A stretch of DNA of 30,034 nt from positions 1 to 30,034 of the IMG/VR virus record IMGVR_UViG_3300046011_000902, one strand, 5' to 3'. A program made the translations under genes and the position numbers. Of the stretch, positions 77-24,253 are shown piece by piece; within the stretch, counting starts at the first letter, position 1; every line of letters begins with the position of its first letter. The notes under the pieces were generated by a model, which was not told the DNA's origin, did no database searches, and saw only the letters and a list, made by a program, of their open reading frames with translations. This DNA comes from a virus.

Positions 77-105
77 TTGACATTGATACGAAACAGTGCT
101 ATAAT
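77..105 (+). promoter_or_regulatory. Perfect sigma70 promoter with extended -10
   Basis: TTGACA lies at 77-82, followed by a 17-base spacer and TATAAT at 100-105. A TG at 97-98 makes an extended -10 (TGnTATAAT). All 12 core positions match the bacterial consensus, so start of transcription is expected near 112. It would drive the DUF3150/AAA+/VWA cassette, probably as an early promoter read by the unmodified host polymerase. The last point is inference; the hexamer match is seen directly. Confidence 0.9.
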
Positions 106-145
106 GTAGTTTGTAGTGAGTGAAGTAGTTCAAACCCTGAACCCT

Positions 146-163
146 GTTAGTCGACCGACTAAC
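146..163 (+). repeat. 8-bp inverted repeat in the leader of gene 1
   Basis: GTTAGTCG (146-153), a 2-base loop and CGACTAAC (156-163) form an inverted repeat in the 5' leader, six bases before the AAGGAG ribosome site (169-174). A related 18-mer recurs at 1095-1112. It may be an operator dyad for a DNA-binding protein, or an RNA hairpin next to the ribosome site. The two-base loop is tight for RNA, which favours a DNA-level site or a shorter stem. Confidence 0.6.
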
Positions 164-180
164 AACCCAAGGAGCTAAGC

Positions 181-1095
181 ATGAATCACCCTGCCAATAT
201 CTCAGCGCCCAGCATCGCATCCTCTGCGGTGCTCATCGACCTCTCAATCAGCACGTGGACAGGCCGTAAGTTGGACAAGCGTGCAAGTAACGATGTGACT
301 GCACAGAACAACGCAGCCAAGGGTGTGGCTGCCGTGACCAAGCGACTGCTCGGTGACTGTGCCGAGCTGGAAGCAATCCAGAAGTTCGCAGCGAACGCTC
401 GGAACACACACTATGCGATGACGATGCCGTGGTCGGACCTCGGGCTGCGGTTGTGCACGACGGTGATGTACGTGGGGACATCTCAGCGTGACGGGTACGA
501 GACTGTGATGACTGATCTGCAAGCCGAGTTCCACCGGCTGACCGAGCAGTTCCTCAGTGCCTACGACTGGGAGATTCAGAACGCGCAGCTAAAACTTGGC
601 ACGCTGTTCAACGCCGACGAGTATCCGACGAGGGATGCGGTAGCAGATAAGTTCAAGTTCCGGTTCGCAGCCATGCCGCTGCCTGATGCGGGTGACTGGC
701 GACTCGACATCAACAACGAGGCGATGGCGTCAATGCGTACGCAGTATGAGCACTTCTACAGTGAGCAGTTGAAGGATGCCATGGGCGACATCTGGCGGCG
801 TGCATACGATGCGTTGTCCAAGATGTCCGAGCGGCTCGACTACGCCGACGACGCTACGAAGAAGGTGTTTCGTGACTCGCTGGTCACTAACGTGCAGGAG
901 ATCATCAACCTGCTGGAAGCGTGCAACGTGACAAACGACCCGGCGATGGTCGACGCACACCGCAGGCTGGATGCTGCGATGCAGGGGATTACGCCGGATG
1001 CGCTGCGTGACGATGCACACCTGCGTGCCGAGACTAAACGGCAGGTCGACGCCGTGAAGAAGATTATCGACAACCTGCCCGGGCTGGGGTTCTAG
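181..1095 (+). CDS. DUF3150-like protein
   Basis: This 304-residue protein has no catalytic motif that I recognise. Residues about 16-32 (hydrophobic LIDLSIS then W-T-G-R-K) match what I remember of the start of the DUF3150 family, which in plasmids and phages sits beside CobS-like AAA+ genes, as here. The rest looks mostly alpha-helical and charged. The start is set by AAGGAG at 169-174, six bases upstream of the ATG. It is the first gene after the strong promoter, and the AAA+ gene follows after 46 bases. A role as adaptor or partner of the ATPase and VWA protein is inference from gene order. Family assignment is from memory of the N-terminal pattern; no function is established. Confidence 0.72.
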   Translation: MNHPANISAPSIASSAVLIDLSISTWTGRKLDKRASNDVTAQNNAAKGVAAVTKRLLGDCAELEAIQKFAANARNTHYAMTMPWSDLGLRLCTTVMYVGTSQRDGYETVMTDLQAEFHRLTEQFLSAYDWEIQNAQLKLGTLFNADEYPTRDAVADKFKFRFAAMPLPDAGDWRLDINNEAMASMRTQYEHFYSEQLKDAMGDIWRRAYDALSKMSERLDYADDATKKVFRDSLVTNVQEIINLLEACNVTNDPAMVDAHRRLDAAMQGITPDALRDDAHLRAETKRQVDAVKKIIDNLPGLGF

Positions 1096-1112
1096 TTAGC
1101 CCGCCGACTAAC
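1095..1112 (+). repeat. Imperfect second copy of the 18-mer leader dyad
   Basis: GTTAGCCCGCCGACTAAC matches the 146-163 dyad at 15 of 18 positions and keeps the GTTAG and CGACTAAC ends. It begins at the last base of the DUF3150-like stop codon and precedes the AAA+ gene. Both copies are followed by AACAAC or a near match and then a ribosome site, so the repeat marks the leaders of two successive genes. It could be an operator pair or a processing/translation signal. Confidence 0.55.
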
Positions 1113-1141
1113 AACACATAACACAACCCACGGAGTAAACC

Positions 1142-2233
1142 ATGACTACTGCAACAACACTGTATGCCCTGTCGCTCGACCAGATCGAGCAAGCCATCGC
1201 CACGGGGGGTAACAAGCGGACAATCCTCGTGCAAGGTCACATGGGCACGGGCAAGTCCTCACTTCTCAAGGCGCTTGCCAAGCGGTTCCCCACGCACACA
1301 CCGTGTTACTTCGACTGCACAACTAAAGATCTCGGTGACATCATGATCCCCCAGTTGTTGACAATCGACGAGGAGGGGTGCGTGCGGCTGGTGCCTAACG
1401 AGGAGCTGGGCCTGCACCTGAAGAAGCCGATCATCCTGATGATCGACGAGTATGGCAAAGCCAACCCGTCGGTGAAGAACGCGATGCTGCGCATCATGCT
1501 GGAGGGCAAGATCGCAGCATACGAGAAGCACCCTGACTCGATCATCTTTGCGACAACTAACCTCGGGGCCGAGGGGGTAGGTGACATCCTGCCACCTCAT
1601 GCACGCAACCGGATCTCAATCGTGACGGTGCGTAAGTCTACGAACATGGAGTGGATCGAGTGGGGTATCAACCATGGCGTCGATCACACGCTGCTTGGTT
1701 GGTGTAAGGACAACCCGCAGTTGTTCGCATCGTTCGAGGACGTGAAAGACCCGGAGAACAATCCGTACATTTTCCATCCCAAGTCTGCGCGAACATCGTT
1801 TGTCACACCCCGGTCACTTGAAGCTGCGTCTGACTGGCTGAAGGTGCGGGCAGACATGGATGACCAGACGCTCACTGCGTTGTTGATAGGCACCATCGGT
1901 GAGCGCGGTGCGATGGACCTGATGGCGTTCGTCAAGCTCGCTGATCAGTTGCCCTCGCTGGAGTCCATCAAGAAAGATCCGATGCAAGCCAAGGTGCCCG
2001 AGTCGGATGCTGCGGTGTGTATGGTGGTCTACCGCACGCTGGCTGTGATCGAGGCCGGGTGGGTTTCCGCGTGGATGGACTACATGCAGCGGCTGGACAA
2101 GGAGGCACAAGGTCTGTTTGCCAACGGCGTGCGTAACAGCAAGTACGACCGGCAAGCGGTGGTGATGCAGAACAAATCGTTCCGTGACTGGGCGCTGGCT
2201 AACAACTTCATGTTCGCAGCGGACAAGAAGTAA
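1142..2233 (+). CDS. MoxR/CobS-like AAA+ ATPase
   Basis: This 363-residue AAA+ ATPase carries a Walker A at residues 32-40 (GHMGTGKSS, K38), a Walker B near 98-103 (ILMIDE, D102 and E103), a sensor-1-like ATTN further on, and an arginine-rich HARNRI segment that could be the arginine finger. The fold order fits the MoxR/CobS group, whose members remodel or insert metals into partner proteins together with a VWA protein. Here the VWA partner is the next gene, 10 bases downstream, and a DUF3150-like gene precedes it. The ATG follows CGGAG with six bases of spacing. The substrate cannot be read from the sequence. Cobalamin synthesis is unlikely because no other cobaltochelatase gene is present. 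Confidence 0.9.
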   Translation: MTTATTLYALSLDQIEQAIATGGNKRTILVQGHMGTGKSSLLKALAKRFPTHTPCYFDCTTKDLGDIMIPQLLTIDEEGCVRLVPNEELGLHLKKPIILMIDEYGKANPSVKNAMLRIMLEGKIAAYEKHPDSIIFATTNLGAEGVGDILPPHARNRISIVTVRKSTNMEWIEWGINHGVDHTLLGWCKDNPQLFASFEDVKDPENNPYIFHPKSARTSFVTPRSLEAASDWLKVRADMDDQTLTALLIGTIGERGAMDLMAFVKLADQLPSLESIKKDPMQAKVPESDAAVCMVVYRTLAVIEAGWVSAWMDYMQRLDKEAQGLFANGVRNSKYDRQAVVMQNKSFRDWALANNFMFAADKK

Positions 2234-2243
2234 GGAGAACAAC

Positions 2244-3455
2244 ATGCTGATGATCGGTAAACAACTGACCGCTGAGCAGCGGCTGACCAAGGGTGTCGTG
2301 GACATCATGGGTAATCTGAAGTACGTGGCACTCGCAGGCGTGCTCATGGTGGGTAAGCGTGAGGTGAGTGAGACGGTGCCGACCGCCTGCACTAACGGGC
2401 GTGACGAGATGTATGGACGTGCGTTCGTCGATGAGTTTGGGGATGCCGAGCTGCGGTTCGTCGTGCTGCACGAGTGCTATCACAAGTTGTACAGGCACCT
2501 CACCACGTGGCGTCATCTGTACGACGAGAACCCGCGCCTTGCGAACATGGCATGCGACTACGTGATCAACATCAAGCTGGTGGATGACAACAAGGACGGG
2601 TTCGCTCGGATGCCCATGCGTAACGGCAAGCCTGTGGGTCTGATCGACGAGCGGTTCCGTGGCATGAACGCTGCACAGGTCTACAAGATCCTGAAGGATG
2701 AGAACGACGACGATGATGGTGGTGGCGGGGGTGGTGAGAGTGGCGACAACGGGCTCGACTCGCACGACTGGGAGGGTGCCGAGGAGATGAGCGACGAGGA
2801 GCGCAAGACCCTTGAGCGTGACATTGACGAAGCCATCCGGCAGGGTGCGTTGATCGCAGGAAAACTTGGCACCGGTGGGGATCGTGACATTGAGGCACTC
2901 CTCAACCCCAAGGTCGATTGGCGCGAGGCGCTGCGTGAGTTTGTCACGGCAACCTGCGCAGGTAACGATTACTCCACGTGGAAACGACCCAACCGTCGGT
3001 TCATCGGTGCGGGGATATACATGCCATCCGGCGTGAGTGAGAAGGTGGGCGAGCTGGTGATTGCCATCGACACGTCGGGCTCCATCGGTAGCCGTGAGCT
3101 GTCCCGGTTCTTGGGCGAGGTGCAGGGTATCTGTGCAACCGTCAAGCCTGATGCGATCCGGCTCCTCTACTGGGACACCGAGGTGTGTGCCGACGAGAAG
3201 TATGTGGATGCAGAGATCGAGAACTTGGCCGCAAGCACCAAGCCTGCGGGGGGTGGTGGCACCCGTGTGTCCTGCGTACCCAGATATATCACCGAGCATG
3301 GCATCAAGGCGCAGGCAGCGGTGGTGCTGACAGATGGTCATCTGGGTGGGGACTGGGGCTCATGGTCCATGCCCGTGCTCTGGTGCATCGTCGATAACAA
3401 ACACGCTCACCCTGACTGTGGGAAAGCAGTGCACGTGAATGACTTGAACGATTGA
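2244..3455 (+). CDS. Metallopeptidase-VWA protein (DUF2201/CobT-like)
   Basis: This 403-residue protein has two parts. The N-terminal part holds HExxH at residues 76-80 (HECYH), followed by another H and R and by an N-x-A-C-D-x-x-I-N segment near 101-109, as in the putative metallopeptidase half of DUF2201. A glycine- and Asp/Glu-rich linker (about 153-190) follows, like the acidic linker of CobT. The C-terminal part is a VWA-like domain with an intact MIDAS motif D276-T-S278-G-S280. The start chosen is the ATG at 2244, because AAGGAG (2232-2237) precedes it. An in-frame upstream start at 2184 lies inside the AAA+ gene. It is the likely partner of the AAA+ ATPase. Peptidase activity is predicted, not shown. 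Confidence 0.88.
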   Translation: MLMIGKQLTAEQRLTKGVVDIMGNLKYVALAGVLMVGKREVSETVPTACTNGRDEMYGRAFVDEFGDAELRFVVLHECYHKLYRHLTTWRHLYDENPRLANMACDYVINIKLVDDNKDGFARMPMRNGKPVGLIDERFRGMNAAQVYKILKDENDDDDGGGGGGESGDNGLDSHDWEGAEEMSDEERKTLERDIDEAIRQGALIAGKLGTGGDRDIEALLNPKVDWREALREFVTATCAGNDYSTWKRPNRRFIGAGIYMPSGVSEKVGELVIAIDTSGSIGSRELSRFLGEVQGICATVKPDAIRLLYWDTEVCADEKYVDAEIENLAASTKPAGGGGTRVSCVPRYITEHGIKAQAAVVLTDGHLGGDWGSWSMPVLWCIVDNKHAHPDCGKAVHVNDLND

Positions 3456-3478
3456 GATAACACAACTGGAGAACCAAC

Positions 3479-4462
3479 ATGGCATACGGACATAAAAGCG
3501 TCGATGAGATTGTTTACAGCACGAAAGGCGCTATCGAAAACCAAGCGGGTATAGCTGCGCGGTATGAACACACCCCGTCGGCAGCAGAGCTTGACGGTGT
3601 GTACGTGATACGGGAACTAGCGCACTTCTGTACTGAGGTGCGGCGCTACCATCGGAAAATAAAGTTTGGCGTGCACAGCAGTGCCACTGGGTATGACTAC
3701 AAGGAGGCGAGCGACGGCTCGGGCTCGGCGATTGTGTTCAACGAGATGTGGGCGTACTTTGATGGGGACGATTACGCTGTGATGCGGCTGGGCTACGCCG
3801 ATTACAACGTCGGGCCGTCTGCAAAACCCACGTTTGGTGTGTACTCACGTCTTATCAGAAATGAGAAGTACGACAAGGGGCGCAGGCAGTACCACATGGC
3901 GACGACCGAGCACCTCCCTCGGGCGGTCAAGAACGTGCAGAAGTACATGAAGCCATACACGTTGGCCGAGCGTGCGGGGTTGACGTATGACGACTTCAGG
4001 TATGCGGTGGACCATCAGATCTCGGTGCCGCACAACATGTTCAACAAGAGTCTGTCCTCGGTGTGGCACCACAGTGCGCTCACAAGCGAGCTGACCGCGC
4101 TGATCCAGAGCGGGTACACGTTCACCGATGCGTCATTCCACAACACCGTGATGAGTCTGATCGAGGCGCAAGCTACACGCACGGCGATGGCAGCTAAGCA
4201 GCACCACGGGTGGTATGTCACGGTGCGGGAGAGTAACGCGGCACAAGTGTTTGACGTGCTGTCGATATACGACATCAAGCGCACGTCGCTGACCGATGTT
4301 GTCCGCAGCGCCGGTACGAGGACATACGCGATGGACGAGCTGGACGCCGAGCACCCGGAGTTGTTTGGCAAGATCGCTGCGCTGTCTATGGTGGACAAGG
4401 GCACGCTCATTGAGGACGTGGGTATGCGGGTAGCTGACAATGCGTTCTGGGTGCTGCGATGA
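3479..4462 (+). CDS. Unrecognised 327-aa protein of the MoxR-VWA cassette
   Basis: I do not recognise this protein. It is soluble, with many Tyr, His and Arg residues and no transmembrane segment. Its last 40 residues (P-E-L-F, then A-A-L-S-M, then E-D-V-G-M-R and N-A-F-W-V) align with the C-terminus of the next gene product, suggesting a shared small domain. The ATG follows TGGAG with a usual gap and lies 23 bases after the VWA gene. The downstream gene starts inside its stop codon (ATGA). Position and spacing put it in the same transcript as the AAA+/VWA genes, so it may be a substrate or accessory factor. That is inference. Confidence 0.75.
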   Translation: MAYGHKSVDEIVYSTKGAIENQAGIAARYEHTPSAAELDGVYVIRELAHFCTEVRRYHRKIKFGVHSSATGYDYKEASDGSGSAIVFNEMWAYFDGDDYAVMRLGYADYNVGPSAKPTFGVYSRLIRNEKYDKGRRQYHMATTEHLPRAVKNVQKYMKPYTLAERAGLTYDDFRYAVDHQISVPHNMFNKSLSSVWHHSALTSELTALIQSGYTFTDASFHNTVMSLIEAQATRTAMAAKQHHGWYVTVRESNAAQVFDVLSIYDIKRTSLTDVVRSAGTRTYAMDELDAEHPELFGKIAALSMVDKGTLIEDVGMRVADNAFWVLR

Positions 4463-4875
4463 ACACAATCACACTTCCTCCGGCGCAGACCCCTGACAAG
4501 GCAGTACGGGAGATTGTCACAGGACAGAGCGGGCCATCAGCCCGAGCAGTCATCCTGCACTACGTGATGCAGTTCGATACGAATCTTGCATCCGCAGGTA
4601 AAGAAGTTTTGACGATGATTGATGATGATCGCGTCTATCGGGTGAGTATCTTTCCTGATGGTGTCGATGTTGTCTGTTTTGGACTTAGTAGTATTGACTC
4701 TAAGTTGGAAGGTCACTATGATCGTGTAGACGATCTACCCAACTGGGTCAAAGAACGCCTTGCTGTTTTGAACATGATGCCGCCCAAACCTCCGACGAAC
4801 ATTGTCGAGGGGATCGGTCGTCGGATTTCTACCAACGTGTACTGGGTATACAACTCAGACATTGCTAACTCTTGA
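4459..4875 (+). CDS. Unrecognised 138-aa protein with shared C-terminal tail
   Basis: The function is unknown. The start ATG overlaps the previous stop (ATGA), indicating coupled translation. Residues about 90-133 resemble the C-terminus of the 327-residue protein upstream: P-N-W-V-K-E-R-L-A-V-L-N-M, a short spacer, then V-E-G-I-G-R-R and N-V-Y-W-V. The N-terminal half lacks a visible motif. From about 4600 the base composition looks more AT-rich and the codon choice less biased than in the neighbouring genes, which may mean a separate origin. It ends the cassette that begins at the strong promoter. Confidence 0.7.
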   Translation: MNTITLPPAQTPDKAVREIVTGQSGPSARAVILHYVMQFDTNLASAGKEVLTMIDDDRVYRVSIFPDGVDVVCFGLSSIDSKLEGHYDRVDDLPNWVKERLAVLNMMPPKPPTNIVEGIGRRISTNVYWVYNSDIANS

Positions 4876-4886
4876 AGGAAAGAACC

Positions 4887-5237
4887 ATGCCACGCACTCG
4901 CAGTCGTACAGCCAAGATCCGCCGCATGATCGAAGAAGGCCACGACACAAAAACAATCGTCGCCAAGCTGCGTTGTAAACCGCAGCACGTCTACAACGTG
5001 CGCTACAAGATCAAGGTGAAAGAAGGACTGGGATCTCTTGCCCCGTCCACGCCCATGCCAAACGAAGGCATAGGAACTGGTATCGCTTCTGCGCCGCCCA
5101 TAGCCGAGGTCCCGCCCACATTTCGATTTGATCCTGCACCGGTCAAAGCCGAAGGCGCACCGATCCCCGGGGCCATCATTGAGATCGAGCCGCCCAAGCC
5201 CACGCTGTGGCAACGCATCAAGGGGTGGTTCAAATGA
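4887..5237 (+). CDS. Small helix-turn-helix-like protein
   Basis: This 116-residue protein has a basic N-terminus (R-T-R-S-R-T-A-K-I-R-R-M-I) and then a predicted helix-turn-helix at about residues 8-40: I-E-E-G-H-D-T-K-T-I-V-A, turn, Q-H-V-Y-N-V-R. This resembles the resolvase/transposase-type HTH used for DNA binding. A Pro-rich linker (about 50-105) leads to a short basic, aromatic tail (L-W-Q-R-I-K-G-W-F-K). The ATG at 4887 is preferred over a TTG at 4872 because a GAAGGAAAG ribosome site lies just before it. It could be a transcription regulator for the early genes; no target is known. Confidence 0.72.
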   Translation: MPRTRSRTAKIRRMIEEGHDTKTIVAKLRCKPQHVYNVRYKIKVKEGLGSLAPSTPMPNEGIGTGIASAPPIAEVPPTFRFDPAPVKAEGAPIPGAIIEIEPPKPTLWQRIKGWFK

Positions 5238-7692: not shown

Positions 7693-8068
7693 TGATCGTA
7701 TCGAGCGGGAATTCCTGCGCTTTGACGCAGACAACCCGTGGGTGTACACGCACTTGCGTGGTATGGCCCTACGACTGAAACGCACCGGGCGTGATTCGTA
7801 TGGGATCGCTGCGCTGTTTGAGGTGCTGCGCTATGAGCACGCAGTGCAGACTATCAGTGACGACGGGCTCAAGTTAAACAACAACTACCGTGCGCTGTAT
7901 GCACGCAAGCTGGCGCAAAACGAACCGGAGCTGCGTGAGTTCTTCAAGTTCCGCGTGCGCCGCCCCCGATACGACCCCGACCAGATCAGCATGGCCGGAG
8001 ACACCCCTGCCCCTGCGGTTGATGCGTGGGACAAACCCATCCGGAAAGAAGCACCATCATGGACCTGA
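7685..8068 (+). CDS. Conserved phage protein, unknown
   Basis: This 127-residue protein is predicted alpha-helical up to about residue 85 (F-D-A-D-N-P-W-V-Y, then S-Y-G-I-A-A-L-F-E-V-L-R-Y, then N-N-N-Y-R-A-L-Y-A-R), with a Pro-rich tail. I remember similar sequences beside phage polymerase genes, with no known function. The start overlaps the DUF3310 end by eight bases and GGAG precedes it. The DNA polymerase starts within its last ten bases. Confidence 0.75.
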   Translation: MLDDRIEREFLRFDADNPWVYTHLRGMALRLKRTGRDSYGIAALFEVLRYEHAVQTISDDGLKLNNNYRALYARKLAQNEPELREFFKFRVRRPRYDPDQISMAGDTPAPAVDAWDKPIRKEAPSWT

Positions 8069-9885
8069 TCACGATTGATTTCGAAACGTACTACGACAGG
8101 GACTATTCACTGTCAAAGATCACAACCGAGGAGTACGTACGCAGCCCGCAGTTTGAAGTGATCGGCGCAGGTGTGAAAGTAAACGACACACCTGCGCAGT
8201 GGGCGAGCGGAGAACCCGAAGACGTTAAGCGGTGGTTGCAGACATCGTTCAACTGGGTCGACTCGTTTGTCCTTGCGCACAACACAATGTTTGACGGTGC
8301 CATCCTCGCATGGCATTTCGGCATTCATCCTCGCGGTTGGCTGGACACCCTGTGCATGGCACGTGCCCTGCATGGGGTAGAGGTGGGGGGTAGCCTTAAG
8401 GCGCTGGTCGAGCGGTACGGGTTAGGCGAGAAGGGGACTGAGGTCATCAACGCCATCGGTAAGCGTCGCATGAACTTCAGCGAGGCCGATTTGAGTCGGT
8501 ACGGGGACTACTGCTTGAACGACGTGAACCTGACGTACAAGTTGTTCCAGAGGATGTCTAAGAAGTTTCCGAAGCAAGAGCTGCGGATCATCGACCTGAC
8601 CCTGCGCATGTTCATTGAGCTTGTTCTTGAATTAAATAAGACGTTGCTGGAGGAACATCTTAACGAGACGGTTGCTCGCAAAGAACGACTACTGCTCGAC
8701 TGTGCAGCGGACCGTGAGGACCTGATGAGTAATAACAAGTTTGCCGAGCTGCTGCGAGGGTATGGGGTGGAGCCGCCGATGAAAGTCAGTCCGGCCACAG
8801 GCGAGCAGACTTACGCGTTTGCCAAGAACGACGAGTCATTCAAGGCGTTGGCCGAGCACCCAGACGAGCGGGTGCAGGCGCTCATTGCGGCTAGGCTGGG
8901 TAACAAGTCAACGCTGGAGGAGACCCGCACGCAACGGTTCATCGAGATCGCATCGCGTGGCAACTTGCCTGTGCCCATCCGCTACTACGCTGCGCATACA
9001 GGTCGGTTCGGTGGGGACGACAAGATCAACATGCAGAATCTGCCGAGCCGTGGGGAGAATGCGAACAAGTTGAAGAAAGCCATCGTCGCACCGCCCGGGC
9101 ACACATTGATCGACGCAGACTCATCGCAGATTGAAGCGCGGGTGCTGGCGTGGCTGGCCGAGCAGGACGATTTGGTGGAAGCGTTCGCCAACAAGGAGGA
9201 CGTGTACAGAAAGATGGCAGCGGCGATCTACGGTGTGGCTGAAGATCAGATTACTAAAGATCAACGGTTCATCGGTAAGACCACAATTCTCGGTGCAGGG
9301 TACGGCATGGGGGCGGTGAAGTTCCAAGCGCAGCTAAAGACGTTTGGCGTGGACATGGAGCTGGACGAAGCCCGACGCATCATCGACATCTATCGGCGCA
9401 CCAACGACAACATCACGCGACTGTGGCGACAAGCCCAGAATGTGCTGGTCAACTTGTCACGGGGTGACCCCGCACCGTTGGGTCGGGCCGGAGTGTTGGA
9501 GGTGGTGCCTGCCGAGACAGCGATACGACTACCCAGTGGGCTGCTGATGCGGTACGATGACTTGAAAATTTCTGAGGGTGAGAAGGGTATCGAGTTTCAC
9601 TATCAGACCCGCAAGGGACGCACGCGCATTTACGGGGGCAAAGTAATTGAGAACGTGTGCCAAGCCATCGCACGCTGCATCATTGCTGAGCAGATGTTAC
9701 GTATCCACAAGCGGTACAAGGTGGTGCTGACTGTACACGACGCCATCGCCGTGTGCGTGCGAGATGTGGACGTGGAAGACGCCCGGGCCTACGTCGAGGA
9801 GTCGATGCGTTGGGTGCCTGACTGGGCCAAGGGATTGCCGGTTAACTGTGAATCAGGAGTTGGGAAATCGTATGGAGACTGCTGA
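8059..9885 (+). CDS. Family A DNA polymerase with 3'-5' exonuclease
   Basis: This 608-residue replicative polymerase has an N-terminal DnaQ-like exonuclease: Exo I D7-F-E9, Exo II N75-T-M-F-D79, Exo III Y151-x3-D155. The C-terminal polymerase domain has motif A D354-S-S-Q-I-E359, motif B R403-x3-K407-x7-Y415-G416 and motif C H560-D561. All catalytic acidic residues are present, so proofreading and synthesis should both work. There is no 5'-3' exonuclease domain and no insertion between the two domains, as in many compact phage enzymes. The ATG at 8059 begins the exonuclease strand directly; an upstream in-frame start at 8026 adds residues outside the domain. It likely works with the primase-helicase at 14668. 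Confidence 0.96.
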   Translation: MDLITIDFETYYDRDYSLSKITTEEYVRSPQFEVIGAGVKVNDTPAQWASGEPEDVKRWLQTSFNWVDSFVLAHNTMFDGAILAWHFGIHPRGWLDTLCMARALHGVEVGGSLKALVERYGLGEKGTEVINAIGKRRMNFSEADLSRYGDYCLNDVNLTYKLFQRMSKKFPKQELRIIDLTLRMFIELVLELNKTLLEEHLNETVARKERLLLDCAADREDLMSNNKFAELLRGYGVEPPMKVSPATGEQTYAFAKNDESFKALAEHPDERVQALIAARLGNKSTLEETRTQRFIEIASRGNLPVPIRYYAAHTGRFGGDDKINMQNLPSRGENANKLKKAIVAPPGHTLIDADSSQIEARVLAWLAEQDDLVEAFANKEDVYRKMAAAIYGVAEDQITKDQRFIGKTTILGAGYGMGAVKFQAQLKTFGVDMELDEARRIIDIYRRTNDNITRLWRQAQNVLVNLSRGDPAPLGRAGVLEVVPAETAIRLPSGLLMRYDDLKISEGEKGIEFHYQTRKGRTRIYGGKVIENVCQAIARCIIAEQMLRIHKRYKVVLTVHDAIAVCVRDVDVEDARAYVEESMRWVPDWAKGLPVNCESGVGKSYGDC

Positions 9886-10063
9886 CGTTTTCATGGACTA
9901 CGCGCACCCGGTGTTGCAGGCCGAGCGGGCATTGAAGGCATTACACAATGCAATGCTCTCGCACGATCATCGCGGTGCAATCGAGGCGGGCTATCAAGCT
10001 ATCGTCGAAGTTCGGATGGCTATCGCAGCCATACGTGAGGATCAGGTGAAAACTTCATGGTAA
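9872..10063 (+). CDS. Small helical protein, unknown
   Basis: This 63-residue protein is Ala-rich and predicted helical (A-E-R-A-L-K-A-L-H-N-A-M, then A-I-E-A-G-Y-Q-A-I-V-E). It starts within the last 14 bases of the polymerase gene, with AGGAG at 9854-9858, and overlaps the nuclease start by seven bases. No family with a known function is recognised. Confidence 0.65.
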   Translation: METADVFMDYAHPVLQAERALKALHNAMLSHDHRGAIEAGYQAIVEVRMAIAAIREDQVKTSW

Positions 10064-10731
10064 CTATACCCGCATGGTCCTTCTCGTCGATTAAGACATT
10101 TGAACAATGTCCGAAGAAGTTTTATCACTTGAAAGTCGCCAAAGATTTTGAGGAAGACCACAACGCTGAGCACTTGCTCTATGGCACACGTTTCCATGAA
10201 GCCGCCGAGTTGTACATACGTGAAGGTGAACCGCTACCGCCGGAGTTTGCTTACGCACAGAATGTCTTGGACAAGTTGAACAAGCTGCCCGGTGTGAAGT
10301 TATGCGAGTACGAGATGGGGCTGACCGCTGATCTTGCACCGTGCGGGTTCAAAGATCCCAATGTGTGGTGGCGCGGTATCGCTGACCTGATCATCATTGA
10401 CGATGAGGGCATGGCGCGGGTGCTTGACTACAAGACAGGTAAGAGCGCCAAGTACGCCGACAAAGGCCAGTTGGAGTTGATGTCGCTGGCCGTATTCAAG
10501 CACTTCCCCGAGGTGTTGTACGTCAAGGCAGGGTTGTTGTTTGTGGTGGCCGGTGCGTTCATCCGCGCCGAATACACCCGCAACAGCGAGGGCGAGATGT
10601 GGGAGAAGTGGTTGACCGATTACGGTCGCATGAAGGCCGCATACGAGACAAACGTATGGAACCCTCGCACGTCAGGATTGTGCAAGAAGCATTGCGTCGT
10701 TTTATCATGCCCGCATAATGGGAGAGCGTGA
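10057..10731 (+). CDS. RecB/Cas4-like PD-(D/E)xK nuclease
   Basis: This 224-residue protein has the PDDEXK_1 pattern: an N-terminal S-F-S-S-I-K-T-F-E-Q-C-P-K-K-F box, then G-T-R-F-H-E, then G-I-A-D110-L and L-D124-Y-K126-T-G, followed by the motif-IV-like Q-L-E-L-M-S-L. One Cys lies in the N-terminal box (Q-C-P) and three near the C-terminus (C-K-K-H-C, then S-C-P), the arrangement that binds an Fe-S cluster in Cas4/AddB-type nucleases. A cluster is therefore plausible but not proven. It probably processes DNA ends during replication or recombination. No CRISPR array is nearby. Confidence 0.9.
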   Translation: MVTIPAWSFSSIKTFEQCPKKFYHLKVAKDFEEDHNAEHLLYGTRFHEAAELYIREGEPLPPEFAYAQNVLDKLNKLPGVKLCEYEMGLTADLAPCGFKDPNVWWRGIADLIIIDDEGMARVLDYKTGKSAKYADKGQLELMSLAVFKHFPEVLYVKAGLLFVVAGAFIRAEYTRNSEGEMWEKWLTDYGRMKAAYETNVWNPRTSGLCKKHCVVLSCPHNGRA

Positions 10732-14604: not shown

Positions 14605-14615
14605 GTTCCAGTTTA

Positions 14616-14646
14616 GGGTGGGGTCGCTCCCCACCCTTTCTTTTTT
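14616..14646 (+). terminator. Rho-independent terminator after the SSB-like gene
   Basis: GGGTGGGG (14616-14623), loop TCGCT, CCCCACCC (14629-14636), then a ten-base T-rich tract (TTTCTTTTTT). The stem is a perfect 8 bp and nearly all G-C. It lies 11 bases after the SSB-like stop. No promoter is visible before the primase gene 22 bases further on, so the primase probably depends on read-through. Confidence 0.92.
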
Positions 14647-17804: not shown

Positions 17805-17832
17805 CCCCCGGCTTGCCCGGGGGTTCTTTTTT
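17805..17832 (+). terminator. Rho-independent terminator at the convergence point
   Basis: CCCCCGG (17805-17811), loop CTTGC, CCGGGGG (17817-17823), then TTCTTTTTT. It ends the rightward transcript. Its last bases overlap the stop codon of the leftward giant gene (17831-17833). On the opposite strand the hairpin has no T tract downstream, so it looks one-directional. Confidence 0.9.
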
Positions 17833-20800
17833 AATCCTCGCTGAAAATCGAGACATCCCGGTCAAACTCCGCCGCGTTGCGCAACAACTCATCGCGCAAC
17901 AGCTTGTTCAACGTGATGCCGTGGTACATCGTTGCCGACGTGCGCATGTGCTGAGCCATTGAATTCAAAATAGTTTCGGCAGTGACAAGCCCCGGGCGCT
18001 TCACATTCATCTTCAACAAGTCTTGCATGTACTCTGACGCACCCTCAGAGTCTCCCATGCGGGTCGCCACGTAGAACTGTTTGAGCAGCTTTGTACGCTT
18101 CTCAAGTACGCTGCGCTCAATGTTCTTCTCAACGGCGTTGACTTCCAACTGACGAATGTACTCCGCAGGAGCGAACCCGAAGGCTTGCGCCAAGGAGTGC
18201 CCTACGCCAATGTCGCCAACAATCGGATCGCCACGTAGGGTGTTGGCGCCCTCGCTTGCAAAGCGGTAGCCCTTCATTACATTACCCGCTGCCGCAGGCA
18301 CCACCTGCTCCAGCCCACGCTGAACTTCCCCCTCCGAGATAAGTTTTGCGCCGCGTATCATGCGATCCGCCACGCCGTACACCGGACCCCCGACCAACTG
18401 CAAGAAGCTAAGGATCTCGTTGTCTTGGCTGCGATAGCCGGTGCTGTGAAAAAGCAGGTCGGTCAGACCGATCCGGCTGGCAATCGCAGTGCCGGTCAGG
18501 TAGTTGAGTGCACCGTTGAACAGGCCCTCACCCGTGTACTTCCGAACGGACGTTTCGAAATCGTCTTCGTCGTCTTCTTTCAAAAACAAGTTATAGAGCG
18601 CCGCTAGGATGCCAAACATTGGCACGCCTTGAACTCCGGCCAGCAAAGCGGACATCCCATAGACCCCGGCAATCTGACGTTTGGCCGCTGCTCGTACGTC
18701 TTTGTCTTCTGATGCGATGGCATCCCGCGTTGTCTTGAACAGCATGTAGTACATCGATACGCCGTATCGCTTGTACATGAAAACCATTTTGCCTAGTGAG
18801 TTCTTAGCAAGCAACGGCGCACTGTTGGCAGAGGCTCCACCGTTCAAAAGTTCAGTCAACTCCACTGCCTTACGTGCAGCCGCTTCACGATCTTCAGCGG
18901 TCAGCTTGGGGTTTTCTTTACGCATCCGGTCAAGCTCAAGCCGGTACGCCGCGATCAGCGAAATCTGCCGATTCATCCGTTCGCCGTGGTGAAACACAAA
19001 CCCCGACCATGCGTTGACTTTGGCTAACGGAGAATCAGCGGTGCCCGATTCAAGCACGTCGCTGGTCATGGAACGACTCAACAGCCCATACGAACTTGCC
19101 AGATCAGAAAGCTCACGCATCTCAAGGATGTCTGGCGACATTCCCAACTTCTCCGCCATCTTGAGCCGCTCAGCTTCAGTCGGTTGCCGCCCAAAGCGTT
19201 TGACATGCGCTTCAACTTCCTTGTCAAAGTCAAGGTATGGATAGTTGTCGATTGAGTATCCCGCTTTGAGTTCTGCCGGATCACCTCCGCCTACGGTCTT
19301 TGCCTTGCGCTTCAGACCGCTACCAAAAAACAATCGTGTTGCTGCACCGATTGCCTTGTTTGCTTGGCCGTAGCCGTATTGCCCGCCCAAATACGGCATG
19401 ATGACCAGCGGTAACTGTGTGGTGTTGACCAGCGCCGACGATATATTGAAGCCCAGCGTAAACCCAAACGCGGTAGAAGTTGCCGCTTTAGCAAACGGAG
19501 AGATGTTAGGCGACACCATTGATTTGATGTGCCCATCCAACACGTCAAACACCATCCGCGTCTGTTCGTTTTCCGTTTGCTTTTTAACGTGTTCCTCCAT
19601 TCGATCCCGCAGCTTGTACATCTTGGCGCTGTACTCAAGATTGGCGAGCTGATGCGCCATGCTCATGGACTTTTTGTAGAACACTTCCGACGCATCGGTC
19701 ATGAAGCCCAGCGTACCCAAGCGTTTGCGGAACGACTGCGCGAACGATGATTCAGGCAGCGTGTCAAGAAACACCCGCATGATCTCATCTGTCACATTTG
19801 GAGCAACGCCGTTTGCATCAAGCACCTTCAGCACACTGTTCACAAACGACGTGGAGGGTGCCGACTTGTAATCTTGTTTCGCGGTAGGCGCAGACTTCTG
19901 AATGGTCTTAGCATCAACCCCGGGGGTCACTGCCAACTCTTTCATTGCACGGTCGCGTTCAACCGACGTGCGAAACGCCATCTTGTAGTATTCCAAGTTA
20001 CCGTCCGGTCCCTTGGCGTGGAATGTAACCCAGTGATCACCTTGCCGCATCAGCGGGAAGTACGGTTCAATCTTTCCTTTTATCGCCAACCGTTGATAGA
20101 CCTCGTTGCGGAGCTTGGTCACCTCAGCCGGATCTTTGACTGACGCACTGATGCGGCTAAAAAGTAGATCGATCAGCTTCTCGTGTGACTCCGCATAGCT
20201 GTCACGCAACTGCTTGTAGATGGCTTGCCCATCCGGGCCAAGCGCCTTCCAATCCGTTTGTAGTTTGTCCCACACTACTTGCTTGTCTTCATTGCCTTTG
20301 GTCTGCTTGTCTTTGTAGTTGCTGCGGGGCTTGCTTGGGTCAACTTCATCCAGCGTGGACTCAGAGATCATTTTGTTGAGTAACGCTTCCTTAGCCGGGT
20401 TGCCCTTGATCCATTTCTGTAGAACGCTATACGTGGCATCGACTGCACGGCGGCGCTCGTCAATTGCTCCGTTCCACTGCTTCTCTAGAGTGTCGAGTTC
20501 CTTTGCCATCGGAATGCCGTTGTCTTGCGCAACGTCCGTCAGCGCATTGACCGGCAAACTCTTTAGCACGATGTTTTTTGTGGCGTTCGGCACCGTGCTG
20601 CGTAGGAAGTTATAGAAGTTGGCAACGAACTGATTGCCCATACCGGGCATCGTTAAGATGCGATCATCCATTGCACGGAAGACATTCTTCGCTGTGCCAA
20701 GCACCGACGCTTCGTACATCGAGCCGTTGATCGCCATCCCCGGCGAAATGACCTGCATGATGAGAACATCTGCAACGTCAAGCGCGGACCCCACGCTCTT

Positions 20801-23800
20801 GGATGGCATACCAATCATGCGCCGCAGGAAGTTACCCACCGCGTTGAAGAATTGCCGCATCGCACTGAGCGGACCACCCATCGGATTGATCTGTGACAAC
20901 TTCTGCTGGAATTCAGGATTGCTGAACACCTCGGACACAAACTCATCCAACGACTTTGCGCCGTACGCCGTATCAAGCGATCCCTTGACGCTGTTAAACA
21001 AATTTGTCAGTTGTTTAGTGAGGGGGTGACTCTTATTGCTAAGAACTTTATGCACGGCAGCGTGCACGGCTTCATGCAACAGCGCATGAGCGTTCATCCC
21101 ACGCTCAGCATCCAAGCGGATTGTGTTGGTCGTGGGGTTATAGTCTCCGGCAAGACTGGCACCGGACGGTGCACGCAGGTCTTTGACGATCTCAACCTTG
21201 ACGCCACCCAACGCCCCCGCAAGTGCCCGCGCAATCTGCGCGTTCCGGCCTAGCAAGTTGCTGGCAAACTTCATGAGTGCATCAACAAGATTGTTGGCCT
21301 TCAACGCCTGCTCGACTCGTGGATGTAGTGGCCGGAATACACGCACCGCTTCAGCCGCCAACTCGTCGTTCTCAAACGACTGCTTATATCGAACTTCGTA
21401 TTGCGCCGTGTTCAGTGCATCTACAAACCCAGCCGATCCAATCTCTTGCTCCAGAAACTTTTTATAGTATTTGAGGAACTTCTCGGTTTGTTCTTTGGAC
21501 AACGACTTGTAGTATTGCTCGGCAAACTTGCCGTTCGTGCCCGGGCCGTTAGCGTTTGTTTTACCAAACTTGAAGTCTGGCATTTTGCCTTCAGCAAGTA
21601 GATTGAGGTGCCGCCCCGCCTCAAGATGCCCACGAGCATCGGGCATCGATGCGTAGTAAATGTCTGCGGCGAGCATCTCAAGCGCGGTATCAACACCTGT
21701 GCCGGTATCGTTGAAGTCTTCGGCTAGTGCAACATAGGTGTTTGCAGCGCGGTCAGCGGGCGCTTCGCCTTTCGGCTTGACTTGCTTAGCCCCTGCGGGT
21801 TTACCTTCGCGGAACACGCGCCCTTGCGGCGTTTCCTTCAGTGCACCCGGCTTACGCCCTTCTCCCACTCCAGCGACACCAGCAGGTTTGCCACGATCTC
21901 CCACTCCAGATGGTTTAGGTGCTTCAGTTCGGGCGGCACCAGCAGCAGTTCCAGCCGCCCTTGATTCTCGCTTGCCTTCTTTGCCACCTTCAGCGCCAGC
22001 TCCAGCTCGTGCACCGACATCTCCCGTGTCCGCACCACGTCCTCGTTCTTGTCCACTTGGCTCTCCACGTTCAGCCTCCTTTTTTGTAGCCTTCTCACCT
22101 TTGGGGGGTGTCGGCGTAACGCCACCGCGTGGCCCAAACATTTCACGTTGCTTTGCCAACCCACCAAACGCTTGCATAGCCATCCGCTCGATGGCGTCTT
22201 TGGTGTTCTGCGTTACGTTGGGGTTGGCGCGGACCTTGGCAAAGATGTTTGCAATCGCAGGTTGCTGATTGGGATCAGCCATGTCCATGCCCAGCAATTG
22301 CTTGTAGAACCCAGATTGCTTCGGCAACCCCGTACTGTCAAGCACATCCGCAGTCAACTTGGTGGCAAACGGTTTCTCTTCTTGCGCGGCCAACTCCTCC
22401 TCGGAGAAGGCTTGGGGCGCTGCACCCTTGGGCTTGCCCATACCCGGGAACCCGATCTGCTCCGGCTCGCGTGTTTCTTTCTTTTCGGGGATGGCAGCTT
22501 CCATCTCTGCCGATTCGGCAGGCGCAGTGGGCTCCGCTTCAGGGGCGGGCTTTTCCATCAACCGCAAGTCATAAGCACGGTTGATAAGGTTGCGTTCTCG
22601 CTCAGTCAAGTTCGGTCTAACGAACCCTTCAAGTTTGAGCTTTTGTACAAACGCTTTTGGTATGTTCTGTACGTCTGACTCGATGATCGGCAGCAGCACT
22701 TCAAGCCGCCTATCTTGTGATGTTTTCTCACGTGCAGCCTGCAATCGTGCGTCGGTTTCGGCCAAGTCAGATTCAAACTTTAGCCGCTCACGTTCAGCTT
22801 TTGCCTTCGCCGCGTCGGCTTTTGCCCGCTCGGCACGAGCTTCAGCATCTCGCGCATCCTGCGCATACATATCGTTGATGAGGTCATCAACGGTCATGCC
22901 GCCTTGGAGATCAAGGCCCAACTGTTGCGCGGTGTCCACAGGTTCTTCTGCGCGAGTGGGTTCGGCTGCACGCGCTTCTTCACGCGGACCGCCGCGTTCA
23001 AACGGCATTTCGATTTGCCCCGGCTCAGCGGGATACAGCAGTCCAGCTTCACCTTCGCGTGCACCTGCAAACGTTTCGGTCAGACCCGCCTCTTTACCCC
23101 GCCGCATAAGATCTAACGTAACGGGATCAACCCCTGCAAACCGGTCAGACGTACGCAAATCGGCTTCGCGTTGGCGTTGTACCCGCGCTGCCTCAAGTTC
23201 TGATTGTGCGGCTTCTTTACCCTTCTGCTTGCTGTACTCGTCAAACTCTGCCTGCGTAGTTATGACAGAGCCGTCCGTTGCCACGAACGGAGTGAACGGT
23301 TGCTTCTCGTAGCCAAGAAGAAGTGGGGACTTTGATTCTTCTTCGGTAGGTGTAGTGGGTGCGGTAGGCGTAGTTGGTTGAGCCCCGGCACCACGTCGTC
23401 CGGGGATTGCCATATCAAGAAGCAAGCTGGCGATGACACCAACCCCTGCGCCCGTGGCCCCCGCTTCGCCTGCACCAGTAAGAAGTTCCTGCTCAGGCTT
23501 ATACACCCCCTTGGCGATTGCGTTTTGTGCAACTTCCTGCGCTGCCTCAGTAGCGCCTTCGATGCCGCCCGAGATCAATGCACGTCGAATGAACCCAATT
23601 GCCCTACCCGCACCGCCCGGAAACGCCGCAAGCGCCATGTCAATGGCCGCGTCAAATCCACCGGGGATGACACCCAACCCTGTTGCAGCGCGTCTCTGTT
23701 CTTCTGTTGCACCACCACGCTCTGCGCGTTCGCGGGCTTCGCCTGCACCGGCGGCAAGACCTACACCGACACCTGCCGCGATACCCGCTGGGCCGAGGAA

Positions 23801-24253
23801 CGCCAGCGGTGCCATAGGAAGTAAGGAGCCCACACCTTCACCGAGGCGACGGCCCACAGATTCTTCATACCCCGCACCTGCCTCAAACGGTTTCTTCGCA
23901 GCACCTGCAACGCTCTTTATCTTCTCCCGCGCTGCCCGCTCGGTTTCCTCCGGCAGCATGGCTGCGATACCAGTTCCTGCGGTTTCTGCAAGGCCAATGG
24001 CACCGGGGACGACGCCTTTGAAGAATTCCTTGACGTTGCCACCGACCGTGGTTTCAGGTTTGACCTGCGGCTCTTCGGGAGGGGGTTGTAGCGCAGCGCG
24101 CTGGCGTTCACGTAACTGCCGCAAACGATCCGCAGCGGGGGTAGGCTCGACCTCCTGCAATGACTCTGCAATTTGTGCTAAACGACGCGCTGCGGATACG
24201 TCACCTGCTGCGTCTGCGTTACGCAGCGCAGCCAACACATCTTGAAGATTCAT
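17831..24253 (-). CDS. Giant polyvalent-type virion protein with metallopeptidase motif
   Basis: This 2140-residue protein is probably packaged in the virion and ejected with the DNA. The N-terminus (L-R-N-A-D-A-A-G-D, then A-A-R-R-L-A) resembles starts I remember from other large phage proteins. Gly/Ala-rich hydrophobic stretches follow (about 130-300), then a charged coiled coil (460-515) and a low-complexity Pro/Gly/Lys region (705-840). A zincin site H1060-E-A-V-H1064 in A-L-L-H-E-A-V-H-A-A-V lies mid-protein. The C-terminal third (about 1580-2000) has N-R-Q-I-S-L-I-A-A-Y and a hydrophobic segment (1862-1888) typical of the LPD38-like domain of polyvalent proteins. AAAGG before the ATG and a 5-base gap to the upstream gene indicate one operon. 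Domain naming beyond HExxH is from memory. Confidence 0.82.
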   Translation of the reverse strand: MNLQDVLAALRNADAAGDVSAARRLAQIAESLQEVEPTPAADRLRQLRERQRAALQPPPEEPQVKPETTVGGNVKEFFKGVVPGAIGLAETAGTGIAAMLPEETERAAREKIKSVAGAAKKPFEAGAGYEESVGRRLGEGVGSLLPMAPLAFLGPAGIAAGVGVGLAAGAGEARERAERGGATEEQRRAATGLGVIPGGFDAAIDMALAAFPGGAGRAIGFIRRALISGGIEGATEAAQEVAQNAIAKGVYKPEQELLTGAGEAGATGAGVGVIASLLLDMAIPGRRGAGAQPTTPTAPTTPTEEESKSPLLLGYEKQPFTPFVATDGSVITTQAEFDEYSKQKGKEAAQSELEAARVQRQREADLRTSDRFAGVDPVTLDLMRRGKEAGLTETFAGAREGEAGLLYPAEPGQIEMPFERGGPREEARAAEPTRAEEPVDTAQQLGLDLQGGMTVDDLINDMYAQDARDAEARAERAKADAAKAKAERERLKFESDLAETDARLQAAREKTSQDRRLEVLLPIIESDVQNIPKAFVQKLKLEGFVRPNLTERERNLINRAYDLRLMEKPAPEAEPTAPAESAEMEAAIPEKKETREPEQIGFPGMGKPKGAAPQAFSEEELAAQEEKPFATKLTADVLDSTGLPKQSGFYKQLLGMDMADPNQQPAIANIFAKVRANPNVTQNTKDAIERMAMQAFGGLAKQREMFGPRGGVTPTPPKGEKATKKEAERGEPSGQERGRGADTGDVGARAGAGAEGGKEGKRESRAAGTAAGAARTEAPKPSGVGDRGKPAGVAGVGEGRKPGALKETPQGRVFREGKPAGAKQVKPKGEAPADRAANTYVALAEDFNDTGTGVDTALEMLAADIYYASMPDARGHLEAGRHLNLLAEGKMPDFKFGKTNANGPGTNGKFAEQYYKSLSKEQTEKFLKYYKKFLEQEIGSAGFVDALNTAQYEVRYKQSFENDELAAEAVRVFRPLHPRVEQALKANNLVDALMKFASNLLGRNAQIARALAGALGGVKVEIVKDLRAPSGASLAGDYNPTTNTIRLDAERGMNAHALLHEAVHAAVHKVLSNKSHPLTKQLTNLFNSVKGSLDTAYGAKSLDEFVSEVFSNPEFQQKLSQINPMGGPLSAMRQFFNAVGNFLRRMIGMPSKSVGSALDVADVLIMQVISPGMAINGSMYEASVLGTAKNVFRAMDDRILTMPGMGNQFVANFYNFLRSTVPNATKNIVLKSLPVNALTDVAQDNGIPMAKELDTLEKQWNGAIDERRRAVDATYSVLQKWIKGNPAKEALLNKMISESTLDEVDPSKPRSNYKDKQTKGNEDKQVVWDKLQTDWKALGPDGQAIYKQLRDSYAESHEKLIDLLFSRISASVKDPAEVTKLRNEVYQRLAIKGKIEPYFPLMRQGDHWVTFHAKGPDGNLEYYKMAFRTSVERDRAMKELAVTPGVDAKTIQKSAPTAKQDYKSAPSTSFVNSVLKVLDANGVAPNVTDEIMRVFLDTLPESSFAQSFRKRLGTLGFMTDASEVFYKKSMSMAHQLANLEYSAKMYKLRDRMEEHVKKQTENEQTRMVFDVLDGHIKSMVSPNISPFAKAATSTAFGFTLGFNISSALVNTTQLPLVIMPYLGGQYGYGQANKAIGAATRLFFGSGLKRKAKTVGGGDPAELKAGYSIDNYPYLDFDKEVEAHVKRFGRQPTEAERLKMAEKLGMSPDILEMRELSDLASSYGLLSRSMTSDVLESGTADSPLAKVNAWSGFVFHHGERMNRQISLIAAYRLELDRMRKENPKLTAEDREAAARKAVELTELLNGGASANSAPLLAKNSLGKMVFMYKRYGVSMYYMLFKTTRDAIASEDKDVRAAAKRQIAGVYGMSALLAGVQGVPMFGILAALYNLFLKEDDEDDFETSVRKYTGEGLFNGALNYLTGTAIASRIGLTDLLFHSTGYRSQDNEILSFLQLVGGPVYGVADRMIRGAKLISEGEVQRGLEQVVPAAAGNVMKGYRFASEGANTLRGDPIVGDIGVGHSLAQAFGFAPAEYIRQLEVNAVEKNIERSVLEKRTKLLKQFYVATRMGDSEGASEYMQDLLKMNVKRPGLVTAETILNSMAQHMRTSATMYHGITLNKLLRDELLRNAAEFDRDVSIFSED

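Follow-up and report, generated by a model that had tools for sequence, protein, structure and literature searches.

A constant five-gene cassette encoding a MoxR-like ATPase, a DUF3150 protein, and a metallopeptidase-VWA protein in uncultured phages, and related gene trios on plasmids

A five-gene cassette follows a consensus promoter

The window analyzed here is a stretch of 30,034 nt (positions 1-30,034 of IMG/VR record IMGVR_UViG_3300046011_000902). At 77-4875, it carries a cassette of one promoter followed by five genes on the + strand, g1 to g5. The promoter (77..105, +) is a sigma-70 promoter with an extended -10: TTGACA at 77-82 and TATAAT at 100-105 are separated by 17 bp, and TG lies ahead of the -10. 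It matches the consensus at 12 of 12 positions and, as a previous sequence-only reading had claimed, is a perfect site; it is also the sole site scoring ≥11/12 on either strand of the window. Markov-simulated sequence contained, per strand, 0 sites at 12/12 and 0.07 sites at ≥11. In relatives, the best site within the 250 bp upstream of g1 scored a mean of 10.1/12, compared with 8.3 in shuffled sequence, and 19 of 43 relatives had a site of 11-12/12. The presence of near-consensus sites at the equivalent place in relatives indicates that the cassette promoter did not arise by chance.

A sequence scan placed the first strong terminator-like hairpin downstream of the promoter at 14615..14637 (+). 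Since no strong + strand hairpin of this kind precedes 14615, the cassette probably heads a long early or replication transcript, which would probably run on through genes for a VRR-type nuclease, a DNA polymerase, a RecB-like nuclease, and an SNF2 helicase. The polymerase is a family A enzyme with a 3'-5' exonuclease (8059..9885, +; PF00476, E = 3.3e-40) that is encoded downstream of the cassette in the same orientation, and a Pfam search identified the RecB-like PD-(D/E)XK nuclease at 10057-10731. In the window, we identified no single-strand annealing protein. Early expression of the cassette would fit this arrangement, with the reservation that promoter class alone is no proof of timing. 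Elsewhere in the window, 17831-24253 (-) encodes a protein of 2,140 aa. Its C-terminal part has a match to a DarB-like antirestriction family (phrog_10089, E = 2.8e-77), and it may be one of the polyvalent proteins that are injected together with the DNA.

The three core proteins retain intact active sites

The first gene, g1 (181-1095, +; 304 aa), encodes a DUF3150 protein. It matches PF11348 with an E value of 9.9e-6 and 25.5 bits, above the curated cut-off of 24.9, with partial coverage (3-158 of 257). AlphaFold predicts long helices and a small beta part (mean pLDDT 83.9), and a fold search with the DUF3150 protein returned generic helical bundles only (best E 0.36, Z about 10), none of them informative as a structural relative. 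A scan of a genome collection for DUF3150 yielded two contigs of metagenome-assembled genomes (MAGs), one of them with phage terminase and portal clusters, and our literature search found no paper on DUF3150.

The second gene, g2 (1142-2233, +; 363 aa), encodes a MoxR-like AAA+ ATPase that matches phrog_1297, named "ATPase" (E = 3e-40). The top solved-structure match of its profile is midasin (E = 2.6e-29). Its key residues are K38 of Walker A, D102-E103 of Walker B, N140 of sensor-1, R157, and R224. In an alignment of 28 sequences, G37, K38, D102, E103, and N140 are invariant, and the Walker and sensor-1 residues and the two arginines are unchanged even in relatives of 20-22% identity from N4-like, Rhizobium, coliphage, and plasmid records.

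The third gene, g3 (2244..3455, +; 403 aa), probably starts at the ATG at 2244; the GTG at 2184 is the start of the open frame only. The protein belongs to DUF2201 (PF13203 and PF09967), with matches to the DUF2201_N putative metallopeptidase (E = 1.7e-23), the DUF2201 VWA-like domain (E = 1.9e-14), and phrog_1314 (E = 1.5e-85). Its N-terminal zincin-like domain contains HECYH at 76-80, with D105 as a possible third ligand, and its C-terminal VWA domain contains a complete MIDAS, composed of DTSGS at 276-280 (D276, S278, S280), T340, and D364. The HExxH, the downstream N101/D105/N109 triad, and every MIDAS residue are invariant among 44 aligned family members, and the Walker, HExxH, and MIDAS residues are kept down to phages at 20-33% identity. 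The PHROG name for phrog_1314, "HNH endonuclease," was rejected for g3, as Pfam and the motifs identify a zincin and a VWA domain; many phage records bear this label.

The sequence-only reading had assigned these three domains and had named K38, D102-E103, the HExxH at 76-80, and the MIDAS at 276-280. Pfam and PHROG matches bear out the assignments, and the residues are exactly at those positions and invariant in the family alignments. The profile searches that it suggested recovered PF11348 above its cut-off, the AAA+ family by phrog_1297, and both DUF2201_N and the DUF2201 VWA-like domain.

AAA+/VWA pairs generally resemble CobS-CobT, and viral cobS and cobT genes have been given a role in cobalamin synthesis in archaeal tailed viruses (PMC8651126), a reading echoed for other phages (PMC11288001, PMC9503304). 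By analogy, the cassette could act as a viral CobST that aids the host in inserting cobalt into cobalamin. However, no NCBIfam CobS or CobT equivalog matches g2 or g3, g3 is a DUF2201 protein and not CobT, and the cassette sits with polymerase genes, all of which make a role in metal chelation very improbable. Among 19 related phage records, CobN was found in none, a count that covers phage records only and leaves a host CobN possible, and the same 19 records also lacked any ribonucleotide reductase with a potential requirement for B12. These results agree with the previous view that the target is not cobalamin.

g4 and g5 share a domain

The two remaining genes, g4 (3479..4462, +; 327 aa) and g5 (4459..4875, +; 138 aa), overlap by 4 bases at the end of g4. 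Neither matches a family in Pfam, PHROG, NCBIfam, or PADLOC. The C-terminal domain of g4 (~242-327, the last ~85 residues) is homologous to g5 (hhalign 96.9%, E = 1.6e-10), which points to a shared domain that probably arose by duplication. AlphaFold gives g4 a confident fold (pLDDT 90.7), for which comparison with the PDB found no match (Foldseek best E 0.17, TM 0.11; VIA best Z 6.1, for one helical stretch). In BFVD, g4 has three matches only, all from uncultured phages, and tblastn searches of INPHARED with g4 and a g5 relative gave no match. The sequence-only reading had listed g4 and g5 as two unknown proteins; it was right that they match no family and missed that they are constant members of the cassette, present in 32 of 32 sufficiently long loci.

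A small protein, g6 (4887..5237, +), is loosely associated with the cassette; it has weak HTH matches and occurs in a subset of loci. Most relatives also carry a conserved gene of ~310-385 aa between the VWA gene and g4 (L012:8556-9488 and 17 other loci) that has no Pfam or PHROG match; the window is without it.

The cassette and its neighborhood are constant in related phages

Scans of IMG/VR viral contigs returned 304 related stretches for the ATPase, 73 in a first scan for DUF3150, at least 519 with a DUF3150 profile, and 164 for the VWA protein. Homologues were gathered by seed patterns, which biases the sample to closer relatives, and IMG/VR records may be fragments; for locus counts, duplicates were removed and only loci with enough room were considered, among the matches listed. 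Within these limits, ATPase and VWA genes adjoin DUF3150 in 94/94 DUF3150 loci, DUF3150 is present in 88/88 ATPase loci, and a VWA-seeded survey, which was a separate start, found both DUF3150 and the ATPase in 56/56 loci. A random distribution of the three genes, proposed earlier as one finding that would count against the cassette, is thus not what these loci show. The entire five-gene set is present in each of the 32 loci that are long enough, again among the matches listed. All genes lie on one strand, in the order DUF3150-ATPase-VWA in 113/115 loci and ATPase-DUF3150-VWA in 2/115.

The carriers are a group of uncultured aquatic phages whose longer records span roughly 58-67 kb. The VRR nuclease and DNA polymerase genes typically follow the cassette in the same order as in the window, and the terminase, portal, and GroES-like genes lie upstream on the opposite strand. 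One GroES-like co-chaperonin gene at the head genes of these phages is at L166:1145-1516 (-) (PF00166, E = 2.3e-6). The fixed trio and five-gene set, together with intact active sites, support the previous claim that the cassette is a real functional unit. Its position next to replication genes, and the plasmid versions of the trio described below, were missed by that reading.

Related genes occur in other phages and on plasmids

Hundreds of phage records contain the ATPase family, and hundreds contain the VWA family. The pair occurs in the N4-like phage SBP1, in the Vequintavirinae phage 4MG (genes apart), in Rhizobium phage TM3_14A, and in E. coli and Acinetobacter plasmid records of phage-like appearance. 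One of these, the 75-kb A. baumannii plasmid record pRBH2-3 (L159), carries a DNA-directed RNA polymerase gene along with the pair and resembles an N4-like phage that was deposited as a plasmid. A position in the replication module recurs in unrelated phages. In SBP1, a helicase and a DNA polymerase directly follow the pair. TM3_14A carries the ATPase, metallopeptidase, DNA polymerase I, RecB, VRR-NUC, SNF2 helicase, and an "integrase" in nearly the order of the window, and this "integrase" matches the window's primase-like protein. Judged by DNA polymerase, the next relative is KPP25, in which the stretch examined had no ATPase or VWA match.

The pair has been described before. N4 gp24/gp25, a core pair of N4-like phages (PMC2784036, PMC7650795), and their Schitoviridae homologues belong to the same two families as g2 and g3 (phrog_1297 and phrog_1314) at 20-32% identity; the N4-like locus examined (SBP1) yielded no DUF3150 relative. 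A MoxR-like AAA+ gene beside a VWA gene with an N-terminal metallopeptidase domain, as in the cassette, was published in 2021 for group 2.2 jumbo phages, with a proposed role in virion assembly (PMC7824862). Unlike that pair, the cassette always includes DUF3150 and two further proteins; it also has a host-type promoter and sits in the replication module. In the 65 kb Synechococcus phage MinM2, MoxR, DUF3150, and VWA genes are together and annotated as such, and the phage also carries an Erf-type recombination protein. A tblastn search found its DUF3150 in two Planktothrix phages as well, Pag-Yong1 and Pra-JY27. The MinM2 trio differs from the cassette in its order (ATPase-DUF3150-VWA), its interspersed small genes, and a DUF3150 that is 27% identical, and no relative of g4 or g5 was detected with it.

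DUF3150 is also carried by 41 plasmids, and the DUF3150-containing trio is found on about 40, mostly from Burkholderiales. On Burkholderia, Cupriavidus, Rhodovastum, and Variovorax plasmids, the "hypothetical protein" flanked by MoxR and VWA genes scores 147-170 bits against the phage DUF3150 profile. Among the matches listed, DUF3150 is nearby in 28 of the 29 VWA plasmids compared, in 27 of them within 1 kb. The three families are adjacent, as in the cassette, in the order ATPase-DUF3150-VWA, and neither g4 nor g5 was detected with the trio on these conjugative or large plasmids. The Variovorax VWA protein (L239:7956-9254) has lost HExxH and kept the MIDAS DxSxS, suggesting that some members may do without peptidase activity. 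On a Cupriavidus plasmid, a PRTRC-system ThiF gene (L237:1-594) lies ~5 kb upstream of the trio, a possible link to plasmid maintenance modules.

The IncC plasmid pAR060302 carries a non-contiguous cluster of a CbbQ-type AAA gene, an unknown gene, the DNA recombination genes ssb, bet, and exo, DUF3150 (305 bits), and a VWA gene with CobT and HExxH signatures, so that ssb-bet-exo has the AAA gene on one side and the DUF3150 and VWA genes on the other. Because its AAA (CbbQ_C, of the CbbQ/NorQ type) and VWA (CobT-like) proteins belong to other subfamilies, what connects the IncC cluster to the cassette is DUF3150 together with the shared layout.

These distributions bear on whether the cassette encodes a virion assembly chaperone that also processes structural proteins, the role put forward for the jumbo-phage pair (PMC7824862). 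ATV p618/p892 is a reported precedent for assembly (cited in PMC7824862 and PMC7159879), and the GroES-like gene lies beside head genes in the phages studied here. However, the cassette is on the strand opposite the terminase, portal, and GroES-like genes and starts the replication transcript from a host-type promoter, and conjugative plasmids, which form no virions, carry the trio too. We therefore regard a role in virion assembly as improbable.

Discussion

NorQ-NorD, CbbQ-CbbO, RavA-ViaA, and midasin each combine an AAA+ ring motor with a VWA/MIDAS partner. They belong to other subfamilies and have other targets, and the cassette proteins likely share their mechanics. To our knowledge, none of these systems is associated with a DUF3150 protein. 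In NorQD, a finger of the VWA partner is inserted in the AAA+ ring and turned by it, and the partner levers the target, which is perhaps held through the MIDAS (PMC13036017).

We favor, with somewhat less than even confidence, a model in which the cassette encodes an AAA+/VWA machine of the NorQ-NorD/CbbQ-CbbO/midasin type whose role, early in infection, is to remodel or clip a DNA-bound protein complex. The proteins would be made early from the host sigma-70 promoter that opens the replication transcript. g2 would form a hexameric ring motor on which the VWA domain of g3 docks, with the g3 MIDAS holding the target. The g3 zincin domain would bind zinc and might cut the target, or it may be solely structural. 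DUF3150 would serve as a dedicated third subunit, either an adaptor or a regulator, and g4 and g5 would be adaptors or substrates specific to this phage lineage. The likely target would be a DNA-bound complex of host or phage, involved in replication, recombination, or DNA protection, and loosening or clipping it would allow incoming DNA to replicate or recombine.

A target on DNA is favored because what the phages, Burkholderiales plasmids, and IncC have in common is mobile DNA, in several cases with replication or recombination genes adjoining. The early promoter, the position in the replication module, the absence of CobN and ribonucleotide reductase from the 19 phage records, and the plasmid trio together argue against B12 synthesis and virion assembly. 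Nevertheless, neighborhood is not function, as early phage operons mix unrelated genes.

The same early AAA+/VWA-protease complex could instead dismantle or cut a host defence or regulatory complex and thereby shield phage or plasmid DNA. The consensus host-type promoter, the conserved active sites with a peptidase-like domain, and a cassette core common to phages and conjugative plasmids, which face the same defences, are consistent with host takeover or counter-defence. MoxR-vWA-peptidase conflict systems have been published, so that this type of machine can serve conflict (PMC7159879, PMC12839542); in the ternary systems the third component is a VMAP or iSTAND sensor, and that of the cassette is DUF3150. 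However, no PADLOC family fits, with two weak AAA-type matches only (≤20 bits), a result that also fails to support the earlier suggestion of a phage defence as target. The AAA proteins are ~70% identical across much of the g2 family. Counter-defence genes usually diverge fast, and a cassette that is constant across the whole lineage suggests a basic role. We rank this explanation second, as possible but unlikely.

Overall, the observations of the sequence-only reading were confirmed and its interpretation was supported in part. It had called the cassette an uncharacterised system. The unit is real, but this description was overstated, given the published MoxR/VWA pair (PMC7824862, PMC2784036, PMC7650795) and the annotated MinM2 trio. 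The core pair is not new; both the pair itself and the metallopeptidase-VWA fusion have been described before, and DUF3150 is already a Pfam family. According to the literature searched, what is new is the constant five-gene unit, the domain shared by g4 and g5, the conservation of the promoter, and the link to plasmids.

More tentatively still, MoxR-DUF3150-VWA may represent an unrecognised kind of AAA+/VWA machine that is neither a chelatase nor a virion chaperone. Phages and conjugative elements would share this machine, which would remove or cleave proteins on DNA during replication or recombination, with g4 and g5 as a new lineage-specific module. Phage MoxR-VWA pairs, present in hundreds of sequenced phages, are usually labelled as cobalamin genes, HNH endonucleases, or assembly chaperones. 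The DUF3150 link to plasmid clusters, one of them around ssb-bet-exo, gives a testable alternative reading with two tractable models, an IncC plasmid and, for the pair alone, coliphage N4.
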